Of a stretch of 11,347 nucleotides of DNA, positions 109-3,815 are shown piece by piece (position 1 is the first letter of the stretch; the number at the start of each line of letters is the position of its first letter). The notes under the pieces are model-generated. The model saw only the letters and a program-made list of their open reading frames with translations, did not search any database and was not told the origin of the DNA. This DNA is from Rhodocyclaceae bacterium (GTDB lineage Bacteria; Pseudomonadota; Gammaproteobacteria; Burkholderiales; Rhodocyclaceae): positions 1 through 11,347 of the forward strand of contig PNJM01000057.1 of NCBI GenBank assembly GCA_013821865.1. Direction: 5' to 3'. A program made the position numbers and the translations under genes.

Positions 109-3100
109 TTAAGCCGCTTTGGCCGCCACGCTGACAGGGTGATCGAGCGCGGCCATGAGTTCCTGCTGCCTGGCCTGCGCCTGGGCGATCGAGCGTTCCT
201 TCACCGGGCCGTAGCCGCGGATGGTTTCCGGGATGCGGGCGAGCGATACGGCCGTATCGAGGTTGGCGCGGTCGAGCTTTTTCAGGATGTCCGCGATGGT
301 GCGCTCGTAGTCGGCGATGAGCTGGCGCTCCTGCTTGCGTTCGGCGAGATGGCCGAAGGGGTTGAACACCGTGCCGCGCAGGAACTTGAAGCTGGCGAGC
401 AGTTTCATGGCGGGCAGCAGCCACGGGCCGTAGGCTGTTTTCTTCGGTTCCGCACCGGGTTCGGCGCCGCGGCTCCACGGCATGGCGATATGGAAATGCA
501 GCTTGTAGTCGCCCTCGAAACTGGCATCGAGCGAGCGCTGGAACTCCGCATCGGCGAACAGCCGTGCCACTTCGTATTCATCCTTGTAGGCAAGCAGCTT
601 GAAGTGGTTGCGCGCCACGCTTTCCGAGAGCCGCGTGTCGCCCAAACCGAGCGAGGCTTCTTTCTGCCGCACCTGCTCGACCAGGTCGGCATAGCGGCGG
701 GCGTAGGTAGCGTTCTGGTAGGCGATGAGGTAGTCGCGACGGCGGCCGACGGTTTCGTCCAGGCTGGTCGAGAGCTTGTGCGTCGGCAGCACGGTTTCCG
801 AACCGCGCGCGCGCGCCTCGATGCCGGCCGGATCGTGCGCCGCGCGGCGGCCCCAGGAGAAGGCGCGCTGGTTGTCGGCTACCGCTGCCCCGTTCAGTTC
901 GATGGCGCGCAGCAGCGCTTCCGCGGAAAGCGGAATGAACCCTTTCTGGAAGGCGTAGCCGAGCATGAAGATGTTGGTGGCGATGGAGTGGCCCATGAGG
1001 AGCGAGGCAAGCCGCGTCGCATCGAGGAAAACCGTGCCTGCGGGACCGACCGCGTCCAGCACCGATTGCTCCATGGCGCCGACGGGGAAGGGGTGGTCCG
1101 GGTTGCGCACGAAGTCGCCGGTGATGGCCTGGCCGGTGTTCACGATGGCTTGGGTGACGCCGGCCGTCGTCTTGGCCAGGGCGTCGTCGCTCACCGTGAC
1201 GACGATGTCGCAGCCGAGAATGAGGTTGGCTTCGCCCGTGGCGATGCGCGTCGAATACAGCTTGTCCTGGCGATCGGCAAGGCGCACATGCGACATCACG
1301 GCGCCGCCCTTTTGCGCCAGGCCGGTCATGTCGAGCACGGTGACGCCCTTGCCTTCGAGGTGCGCGGCCATGCCGATCAGCGCACCGATGGTCACCACCC
1401 CGGTACCGCCGACGCCGGCGACGAGGATGCCGTAGGGAACGGATAGATCGGCGAAAGCCGGCTCCGGCAGGTCGGCGAATTCAGCAGGGGTGGTATCGAT
1501 GGCGCGGCCGCGCCGTACTTCGCCGCCGTGCACCGTGACGATGCTCGGGCAGAAGCCGGCGACGCAGGAGTAATCCTTGTTGCAGGTAAATTGGTCGATG
1601 GCGCGCTTGCGGCCGAACTCGGTCTCGACCGGCACGACGGCGAGGCAGTTGGACTTCACGCTGCAATCGCCGCAGCCTTCGCACACCAGTTCATTGATGA
1701 AGACGCGCACGGCGGGGTCGGGAAACTTGCCGCGCTTGCGCCGGCGGCGCTTCTCGGCGGCGCAGGTCTGGTCGTAGATGAGGGCGCTGACGCCCGGCGT
1801 TTCGCGCAGTTCGCGCTGCACCGCTTCCAGGTCGTCGCGGTGGCGGATGTCGATGCCGGGCGCGAAATCAGTCACGCCCCGGTACTTTTCCGGTTCGTCG
1901 GACATGACGACGATGCGCTTGACGTCTTCGGCGGCGAGCTGGCGCGTGATCTGCGGCACCGTCAGCGTGCCGTCCACCGGCTGGCCGCCGGTCATGGCGA
2001 CCGCGTCGTTGAAGAGGATCTTGTAGGTGATGTTGACCCCGCCGCCGGGCCGCCCCAAGGCGGGGCTGCCATTTTGCCCGGAGCGAAGCGAACTGCCGTC
2101 ACCCCCTTCCTCGGGAAGGGGGGCGGGGGGACGGCTCAACTGATCAGCGGCGACGGCGGCGCGGATGGCGATCAGGCCGGAATGGAAGTAGGTGCCGTCG
2201 CCCATGTTGGCGAAAACATGCCGCGTGCCGCTGTGTGCGGCGACGCCCAGCCAGGACGCGCCTTCGCCGCCCATCTGCGAAATGGTGACGGTGTCGCGGC
2301 CCATCCAGACGGCCATCAGATGACAGCCGACACCGCCCAGGGCGCAACTGCCCTCGGGCACCTTGGTGGACTGGTTGTGCGGGCAGCCGGGGCAGAAATA
2401 AGGCGTGCGCAGCAGCGCCAGGCGCGGCTTGGCCAGGGCCTTGGCCTTGTCCTCGAGGAAAGCGAGGCGCGCCTTGATGCGGTCCGAGGTGTAGAAGCGG
2501 GCAATGCGCGCCGTGATGGCCCGCGCGACGATGGCCGGTGTCAGTTCGGAAGTGGGCGGCAGCAGCCACTGGTTGTGCGGCACCGGCCACTCGCCGGCTT
2601 CGTCGAACTTGCCGACGACGCGGGGGCGTACGTCCTCGCGCCAGTTGTAGAGCATTTCCTTCAACTGGTACTCGATGATCTGGCGCTTCTCCTCGACGAC
2701 GAGGATTTCTTCCAGCCCTTGCGCGAACTGGCGCACGGAATCGGCTTCCAGCGGCCAGGGCATGCCGACCTTGAACAGGCGCAGGCCGATTTCCGCCGCG
2801 TGCCCCTCGTCGATGCCGAGATCGTCGAGCGCCTGGCGCACGTCGAGCCAGGCCTTGCCGCAGGCGATGATGCCCAGCCGCGGCTTCGGGCTGTCGATGA
2901 CGATGTGGTTGAGCCGATTGGTGCGGGCGTAGGCGATGGCGGCATAGACCTTGGACTCGTGCATGCGGTGCTCCTGCACGAGCTGCGGATCGGGCCAGCG
3001 GATGTTGAGCCCGTCCTGCGGCACGAGGAAGTCGCCGGGCAGGGCGATCTGAACGCGTCTGGAGTCGACCTCGACGGTGGCCGAACTCTCGACCGTGTCG

Positions 3101-3708
3101 GAGGTGACTTTCATCGCCACCCAGCAGCCCGAGTAGCGCGACATGGCCCAGCCGTGCAGGCCGAAGTCGAGGTATTCCTGGATGCCGGCCGGGGCGAGCA
3201 CCGGGATGCCGCAGGCCGAGAACATGTGCTCGCTCTGGTGCGCCACGGCGGAGGAGCGCGCCGAATGGTCGTCTCCGGCGATGAGCAGGACGCCGCCGTG
3301 CTTCGAACTGCCGGCGTAGTTGCCGTGCTTGAAAACGTCGCCGCAGCGGTCGACGCCCGGCCCCTTGCCGTACCACATGGCAAAGACGCCGTCGTACTTC
3401 GGCTGCGGGAAGAAATGCAGTTGCTGCGTGCCCCAGATGGCGGTGGCGGCGATGTCTTCATTTACGCCCGGCTGGAAGGTGATGTCGTGCGCCTTGAGGA
3501 AGCGCCCGGCAGCATGCAGTGCGGTGTCCAGCCCGCCCAGCGGCGAACCGCGGTAGCCGGAGATGTAGCCGGCCGTATGCAGGCCGGCGGCACGGTCGCT
3601 CTCGTGCTGCAGCATGGGCAGGCGCGCCAGTGCCTGCACGCCCGTGAGGAATACCCGGCCGTGGTCGAGCCGGTACTTGTCGTCGAGCGAGACCTGAGCG
3701 AGCGTCAT
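109..3708 (-). CDS. iorAB: Fused indolepyruvate:ferredoxin oxidoreductase (IorA-IorB type)
   Basis: This thiamine-diphosphate and Fe-S enzyme oxidatively decarboxylates arylpyruvates, classically indolepyruvate, to arylacetyl-CoA and reduces ferredoxin; it is cytoplasmic. The 1199 residues show the single-chain proteobacterial architecture. The N-terminal 2-oxoacid domain includes GYISGYRGSPLGG (47-59) and Glu84. It is followed by CPGCPHN (439-445) and the ThDP/Mg motif starting at GDG (503-505). The Fe-S segment has Cys 676, 679, 682, 688, 709, 715 and 720. An IorB-like gamma domain starts at GVGGTG (765-770) and contains the AQKGG signature (798-802), and a C-terminal extension follows from about 930. 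The ATG at 3706-3708 is preceded by GAGAGG and gives the family's usual N-terminus. Residues 522-556 are an in-frame insertion derived from repeat-like DNA (separate entry). No stop or frameshift is seen. It is the last gene of the row, 117 nt after the binding-protein gene. In this context it would convert tryptophan-derived indolepyruvate to indoleacetyl-CoA; phenylpyruvate is also a possible substrate. Activity of this allele is uncertain because of the insertion. Confidence 0.93.
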   Translation of the reverse strand: MTLAQVSLDDKYRLDHGRVFLTGVQALARLPMLQHESDRAAGLHTAGYISGYRGSPLGGLDTALHAAGRFLKAHDITFQPGVNEDIAATAIWGTQQLHFFPQPKYDGVFAMWYGKGPGVDRCGDVFKHGNYAGSSKHGGVLLIAGDDHSARSSAVAHQSEHMFSACGIPVLAPAGIQEYLDFGLHGWAMSRYSGCWVAMKVTSDTVESSATVEVDSRRVQIALPGDFLVPQDGLNIRWPDPQLVQEHRMHESKVYAAIAYARTNRLNHIVIDSPKPRLGIIACGKAWLDVRQALDDLGIDEGHAAEIGLRLFKVGMPWPLEADSVRQFAQGLEEILVVEEKRQIIEYQLKEMLYNWREDVRPRVVGKFDEAGEWPVPHNQWLLPPTSELTPAIVARAITARIARFYTSDRIKARLAFLEDKAKALAKPRLALLRTPYFCPGCPHNQSTKVPEGSCALGGVGCHLMAVWMGRDTVTISQMGGEGASWLGVAAHSGTRHVFANMGDGTYFHSGLIAIRAAVAADQLSRPPAPLPEEGGDGSSLRSGQNGSPALGRPGGGVNITYKILFNDAVAMTGGQPVDGTLTVPQITRQLAAEDVKRIVVMSDEPEKYRGVTDFAPGIDIRHRDDLEAVQRELRETPGVSALIYDQTCAAEKRRRRKRGKFPDPAVRVFINELVCEGCGDCSVKSNCLAVVPVETEFGRKRAIDQFTCNKDYSCVAGFCPSIVTVHGGEVRRGRAIDTTPAEFADLPEPAFADLSVPYGILVAGVGGTGVVTIGALIGMAAHLEGKGVTVLDMTGLAQKGGAVMSHVRLADRQDKLYSTRIATGEANLILGCDIVVTVSDDALAKTTAGVTQAIVNTGQAITGDFVRNPDHPFPVGAMEQSVLDAVGPAGTVFLDATRLASLLMGHSIATNIFMLGYAFQKGFIPLSAEALLRAIELNGAAVADNQRAFSWGRRAAHDPAGIEARARGSETVLPTHKLSTSLDETVGRRRDYLIAYQNATYARRYADLVEQVRQKEASLGLGDTRLSESVARNHFKLLAYKDEYEVARLFADAEFQRSLDASFEGDYKLHFHIAMPWSRGAEPGAEPKKTAYGPWLLPAMKLLASFKFLRGTVFNPFGHLAERKQERQLIADYERTIADILKKLDRANLDTAVSLARIPETIRGYGPVKERSIAQAQARQQELMAALDHPVSVAAKAA
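2041..2145. repeat. Repeat-like hairpin element inserted in frame in iorAB
   Basis: This 105-nt stretch encodes 35 residues (522-556 of the oxidoreductase) rich in Gly, Pro and Ser, between AAVAA and GVNITYKI, which are contiguous in ordinary members of the family. It contains a perfect hairpin with 9-base arms (2102-2110 CCCCCTTCC, loop TCG, 2114-2122 GGAAGGGGG). A smaller GC hairpin lies at 2050-2063 (CCGCC, 4-nt loop, GGCGG). Removing it restores GDG-X26-N spacing. The CCCCCTT/AAGGGGG arms recur in the intergenic element at 3742-3815, which suggests a dispersed palindromic repeat family. The edges are placed by comparison with the family's usual sequence from memory and could shift by a few codons. 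No convincing target-site duplication was found. Confidence 0.7.
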
Positions 3709-3741: not shown

Positions 3742-3815
3742 CCCCCTTTGCAAAAGGGGGATCGAGGGGGATTTGGCGGCCGTGAAATCCCCCTGCCCCC
3801 CTTCGTCGAAGGGGG
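3742..3815. repeat. Intergenic three-hairpin palindromic element
   Basis: Three consecutive inverted repeats fill most of the 117-nt gap between the binding-protein gene and iorAB. The first is CCCCCTTT (3742-3749) with AAAGGGGG (3753-3760). The second is GGGGGATTT (3766-3774) with AAATCCCCC (3785-3793). The third is CCCCCTTC (3797-3804) with GAAGGGGG (3808-3815). The first and third share their arms with the element inside iorAB. There is no T-rich tail in the minus direction, so it does not look like a simple intrinsic terminator. Known intergenic elements of this kind can stabilise upstream mRNA or uncouple expression of neighbouring operon genes. Here that could lower iorAB expression relative to the upstream genes, but this is inference. 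Confidence 0.65.

Follow-up and report, generated by a model that had tools for sequence, protein, structure and literature searches.

The IOR gene and its insert

The window, a stretch of 11,347 nt from a Rhodocyclaceae genome (G000, a MAG of 548 contigs and 82% completeness), contains a gene for a fused indolepyruvate ferredoxin oxidoreductase (IOR) with an in-frame insert within its ThDP motif. The following features are found at the locus:

109..3708, minus strand: fused IOR ORF of 1199 aa, above the NF009588/NF009589 cut-offs, with POR and DUF6537 domains
2194..2202, minus strand: GDG of the ThDP/Mg motif, residues 503-505, invariant in 72 rows
2005..2010, minus strand: N567-D568, far end of the ThDP motif, invariant in 72 rows
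2041..2145, minus strand: 105-nt in-frame insert, residues 522-556, absent from 80 named loci and 11 same-genus loci (L028-L038)
2037..2138, minus strand: extent of the repeat element in the alignment with other genomic copies, ~102 nt (43 own-genome segments; 68-copy alignment)
2102..2122, minus strand: hairpin 1, perfect 9-bp stem (2102-2110 / 2114-2122), 3-nt loop, both-side changes in 3 of 9 pairs
2037..2065, minus strand: hairpin 3, stem 2037-2043 / 2059-2065, conserved 15-nt loop, both-side changes in 7 of 9 pairs

Both the GDG...N ThDP motif and the family profile identify the window ORF as an IOR. Its match to NF009588 reaches 1743 bits (cut-off 952) in two stretches, the best spanning residues 556-1194. 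The 72 rows are those of an IOR alignment made from the window and 71 of 120 listed homologues. A solved homologue was sought by sequence and none was found; the best Foldseek matches of the predicted model are pyruvate:ferredoxin oxidoreductases, with TM-scores of 0.32-0.34 that are low and refer to the whole chain. With the insert left out, comparison of the window IOR with L028 gives a dN of 0.11 and a dS of 0.49, and the ratios against six others are similar. The same genome has a second IOR-type gene, cut by a contig end (G000:C268) and without the insert, so the copy with the insert could be dispensable.

The HSG-to-TYK spacing is 49 residues in the window IOR and exactly 14 in all 80 named IOR loci, the best 80 of 592 confirmed. 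This agrees with the 35 extra residues between GDG and N567 given in the preliminary description, and the extra DNA can be read directly in the ORF as 105 nt, in frame and stop-free, with the perfect 9-bp hairpin that was also reported. Same-genus orthologues read AIRAAVAAGVNITYK or near it, and the window IOR reads AIRAAVAADQLSRPPAPLPEEGGDGSSLRSGQNGSPALGRPGGGVNITYK. As to an unrelated loop of similar length in homologues, the best 80 named loci are all without an extra loop; longer loops lacking the repeat motif exist (L025, L026, P0036, a few possibly eroded) and are not routine in the sets examined. The element ends are ambiguous by a few bases within IOR. An imperfect inverted repeat links the bases to the left of the insert, 2128-2145 (GATCAGTTGA), with the native flank on the right, 2031-2039 (TCAACATC).

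AlphaFold2 prediction of IOR from the 72-row alignment gives a mean pLDDT of 79 and values below 50 at residues 526-556. A disordered loop is predicted between helix 504-524 and strand 560-565, the position between a helix and the next strand that had been proposed for the insert. Residues 568-581 and parts of 436-471 are likewise predicted with low confidence, which leaves the model of the fold around the loop uncertain. Translation of the insert would give a Pro/Gly-rich, disordered loop joining a helix of the ThDP domain to the next strand, and GDG and N567-D568 would still meet in the fold, the loop notwithstanding.

A palindromic repeat at 3742-3815 had been taken for an element of the same kind as the insert. 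That assignment does not hold: this repeat is absent from the 43 segments matched by the inserted one and belongs to a different family with three genomic segments, itself included.

A dispersed hairpin element in Rhodocyclaceae

Used as a DNA query, the insert matches 43 segments of its own genome at E<=1, itself included, some of which are two pieces of one copy; 31 lie at E<0.001. The 105-nt unit, described beforehand as repeat-derived, thus has other genomic copies. The closest has 81% identity across 100 nt (E=4e-21), which excludes a chance match. When 60 genomes were searched with at most 14 candidates scored per genome, the repeat was matched in 23 at E<=0.001, own genome included: 15 of the 16 genus genomes, 8 of 20 other family genomes and 0 of 24 genomes of the order's other families. 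The only genus member without a match at this threshold is G009.

Alignment of 68 copies from the own and related genomes gives a consensus of ~100 nt with three hairpins: one that is C-rich, a variable one in the middle, and a third in which the stem letters vary and the loop TTGGGGCGGCCCGGC is conserved. Covariation was evaluated in 29 copies (25 of the 31 from the complete genome G002, the window and 3 others). Across hairpins 1 and 3, 95.5% of the cells are paired and both-side changes occur in 10 of 18 pairs (70 cells); 0 of 500 shuffles scored as high, and slid pairings pair only 56-60%. The window copy folded alone is no more stable than shuffles (z of -1.2 as DNA and -1.1 as RNA), and support for the hairpins therefore comes from covariation rather than from folding of a single copy. 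This covariation is strong and argues for two hairpins.

Rfam returned no match at gathering score; six weak matches fall in five sources, none of them on the window's element. A length divisible by three was considered as a property of the element and rejected, with 51 of 68 partly selected copies having such a length and G002 copies ranging from 99 to 113 nt. At L204:3504-3781 (G013:C27), four tandem short repeat units ~72 nt apart lie near the beginning of an open frame of 677 aa.

Placement between genes

The usual location of the element was examined in G002. Of 31 near-full copies, 16 have one end no more than 8 nt from a stop codon and the opposite end no more than 10 nt from a start codon of the same strand, as against 1.3% of 2000 random placements; example copies are L234:1500-1605, L245:1500-1598 and L253:1500-1609. 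Neighbouring genes, callable by codon score for 24 of the 31 copies, are co-directional in 22 cases, convergent in 2 and divergent in 0. By eye, the right arm of sense copies often has GGAGG just before an ATG, and antisense copies have GGAAGG at the left end, also before an ATG. The placement, the neighbours and the end motifs together make the element look like an inter-cistron spacer that could supply a Shine-Dalgarno-like end in both orientations.

Other genes carrying the repeat

In-frame hosts were called by coding-frame tests on both flanks, with thresholds set by ourselves, together with family profiles. Copies within other ORFs are present, both in the own genome and in relatives. In G000 the host is a PduO-type cobalamin adenosyltransferase (contig C22), and in G010 and G008 it is an HrpA helicase. 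G002 has in-frame copies in an AMP-binding acyl-CoA ligase and, with the element antisense, in a NodI-like ABC ATPase, and a 35-nt piece of the element lies in frame in MoeA. A 50-nt piece, 90% identical, is found in SMC of G016 (L203) within the hinge match; this gene fell short of the threshold for coding on both flanks, and the call is based on reading of the region and the profile. A membrane transporter of G011, weakly matched to its family, carries an in-frame copy that uses another frame. An antisense copy in G010 lies in a methyltransferase-like ORF, named by eye only.

Filled and empty sites can be compared for two of these hosts. The pduO insert (108 nt, +36 codons) occurs in G000 and G006, and the site is empty in 24 of 26 genomes matched. 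The hrpA insert (105 nt, +35 codons) is carried by G010 and G008, and G013 has a +34 version that is eroded; the site is empty in 10 of 13 loci read, that of the own genome (G000:C147) among them. The hrpA inserts also have extra left-flank bases, which contain an out-of-frame TGA. Insert-bearing IOR, hrpA and pduO rows that span the insert have 0 stops inside it, in a search that reads through stops. Hairpin 3 keeps at least 8 uninterrupted pairs, G-U included, in 9 of 11 intragenic copies examined, a count from which two rows representing other copies at their loci are excluded.

Differences between shared inserts are 8 amino-acid-changing against 1 synonymous for hrpA (G010/G008) and 6 against 3 for pduO (G000/G006), and per site, synonymous differences are fewer in both inserts than in the flanks. 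Constraint on the nucleic acid, conversion by other copies or small numbers would fit this low synonymous change. Compensatory change after insertion in hrpA was considered, and no claim is made.

Forty of the regions examined were picked by hand, mostly for long open frames, so that in-frame copies are over-represented among them. A less selected set is that of G002 (42 matches, with 40 of 73 candidates scored), where 3 of 47 distinct hit segments are in frame and open through both coding flanks. A shortage of the element in genes remains an impression, since this test sees in-frame copies only and does not include coding density.

Recurrence in the IOR loop

The loop is longer than 14 residues in 34 of the 120 listed IOR homologues, and 27 of these 34 pass a fuzzy repeat motif. 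Since the order of the 120 proteins follows their similarity to the stretch with the insert, they are silent on how frequent the insert is. The loops of P0002 and P0011 each hold two tandem repeat units, and that of P0032 holds four partial ones; in P0030, P0033 and L350 the loop is reduced to short repeat remnants. In a search of 297 family genomes with at most 19 candidates scored per genome, 45 have a match to the IOR loop region at E<=1e-8. In ten rows the alignment covers the whole insert-bearing query; among these, the G167 insert does not match the element as DNA, and the G156 insert is much altered; the partial rows G229, G312, G141 and G224 stand outside these ten.

A loop-free IOR tree of 107 rows was made by quick maximum likelihood from the 36 best-listed proteins, 17 of 84 others and 54 loci, of which 30 are from the genome search and 24 from the 80 named. 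On this tree the long-loop label needs at least 18 changes. With 8 rows dropped, the long-branched P0009, P0016, P0017 and L047 among them, the repeat label also changes 18 times. Both counts mix gains, losses and exchange.

This patchwork could in principle descend from one old insertion, through many precise losses or the exchange of short pieces between species. Several relationships fit such a history. The inserts of the window and G154 are 89.7% identical over 116 nt with the flank included, and their common left-flank letters suggest that these two may share an origin; P0005 (Sulfuritalea sp.) has the same loop as G154, and G016, which has the same genus code as G154, nonetheless has an empty IOR site. 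The inserts of L023, L340 and L341 are 88-89% identical mutually and 85-88% to non-IOR copies, and the short remnants mentioned above show that erosion occurs. Against it, a single clade of repeat-bearing IORs is rejected (p-AU 2.3e-14, 26 rows against 73), for a group named after the first tree had been seen. The G031 insert resembles a non-IOR copy (83%) more closely than it does any IOR insert (74%), and junction classes differ among IOR inserts, L023, L340 and L341 forming a separate one. A single insertion would also require many lineages to have gone back to precisely 14 residues. Identity beside the loop is not raised in a way that would mark an exchanged piece, and no gene-conversion or recombination tract was found in 90-nt blocks. 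We consider one old insertion rather unlikely, though it is the most serious competitor. The nearest non-IOR copy of the window insert is in G004 (91.5% over 93 nt). Taken together, the comparisons suggest three or more insertions into the IOR loop, with tandem growth, vertical inheritance, erosion and perhaps exchange.

Interpretation and alternatives

Very probably, the insert is a copy of the ~100-nt dispersed Rhodocyclaceae hairpin element that is tolerated as a loop of IOR. The central proposal of the preliminary description, that a palindromic repeat of intergenic type became coding sequence within the ThDP motif, is thus upheld by the genomic copies and by the empty sites of the named homologues. 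The element would lie mostly between genes and its copies would occasionally land in genes, where they would be found if they leave the reading frame open and the site tolerates a loop. The family, the hairpins, the frame, the empty sites, the other host genes and the other IORs are read from sequence; from these we infer that the IOR is made with the loop and tolerates it with its activity intact. A wider reading, for which we see the chances as evenly balanced, is that an active inter-cistron spacer with Shine-Dalgarno-like ends has repeatedly invaded the ThDP loop of IOR and other loops of core enzymes while keeping the frame open.

Recruitment of the loop for a function, such as an oxidoreductase docking or regulatory segment, would account for the same place, orientation and frame in many IORs and for the tandem units in P0002, P0011 and P0032. 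However, the peptide is merely the open frame of the element and is also found in HrpA, PduO, SMC and the ligase, and the loop varies widely in length and sequence, with some copies eroding. Recruitment therefore appears improbable to us. More doubtful still, and very improbable in our judgement, is that the segment is skipped by ribosome bypassing or RNA removal. The strong hairpins would suit this, as would the low synonymous change in the shared hrpA and pduO inserts, and bypassed palindromic elements of yeast mitochondria are mentioned in the part of PMC6649704 consulted. Yet the inserts read are multiples of three and stop-free, and partial losses also keep the frame, as seen in protein lists that are biased towards open frames. 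This counts against skipping, because a skipped segment would not need it. An assembly artefact, which repeat DNA within a fragmented MAG might raise, has next to no credibility: the same insert was read in the sequence that represents the 90% cluster P0001 (6 members on 12 contigs) and is 94% identical to the window over the queried stretch, which makes misassembly unlikely, and the IOR insert of G031 sits in a 595-kb contig. The preferred reading thus remains a tolerated copy of the dispersed element.

Comparison with known systems

No description of the element was found among the open-licence papers listed for palindromic or repeat elements of Sulfuritalea, Rhodocyclales and betaproteobacteria or for in-frame palindromes in general. 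REP elements with their RAYT transposases are likewise dispersed hairpins lying mostly between genes, whereas the element described here is ~100 nt long with two or three hairpins and not 20-40 bp. Y1_Tnp (PF01797) is found in 7 of 10 chosen genomes and was not found in the repeat carriers G000, G001 and G021; G001 and G021 are listed as 99% and 98% complete, G000 as only 82%. A RAYT-driven REP has no clear support.

MITE-type repeats are also small, have open frames and sometimes form in-frame fusions, outside Rickettsiales too. In-frame gene fusions are reported for enterobacterial (ERIC/RU-1, RU-2, RU-3), Coxiella (QMITE) and archaeal repeats in the parts of PMC2229807 and PMC5896051 consulted. 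In contrast to these, several hosts here are hit in interior stretches of conserved enzymes. By eye, the consensus has no end-to-end (terminal) inverted repeat, and comparison of filled with empty sites in pduO and hrpA reveals no clear target-site duplication, several flank bases being changed.

The closest likeness is to the palindromic elements of Rickettsia (RPE) and Wolbachia. According to the sections consulted of PMC2229807, PMC3767692 and PMC10969869, these are dispersed and palindromic, of ~100-150 bp, lie both between genes and in frame within conserved protein genes, and share insertion sites among orthologues, all of which is seen here as well. A palindromic repeat of 100-150 bp that is both intergenic and in frame within ORFs is what we find, and the similarity in principle suggested beforehand therefore stands in size, palindromes and placement. 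An RPE-bearing guanylate kinase is reported in the same sections to be active with changed substrate affinity. RPEs lose their repeat identity over time, as stated in the portion consulted of PMC6649704, but hairpin 3 is kept here in most intragenic copies. Further differences are the host, as our element belongs to the G+C-rich DNA of Rhodocyclaceae and was compared by description and not letter by letter; the repeated hits on one enzyme loop in many lineages, with tandem growth; and the intergenic copies, which fill stop/start junctions.

As far as the cited parts of this literature go, protein invasion by in-frame palindromic DNA is most fully documented for Rickettsiales, and scattered cases are reported from enterobacteria, Coxiella and archaea. 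In Rhodocyclaceae, alleles with and without the insert coexist for the same conserved genes across many related genomes of 2-5 megabases. Side by side, they allow tests of how selfish DNA turns into protein sequence, and also of which loops tolerate inserts and how inserts grow or decay. If the wider reading is true, the element would be a free-living counterpart of the protein-invading palindromes of Rickettsia, with a true insertion hotspot. The best reading at present is that it works like the Rickettsia palindromic elements, by analogy and not as a classified member of them.
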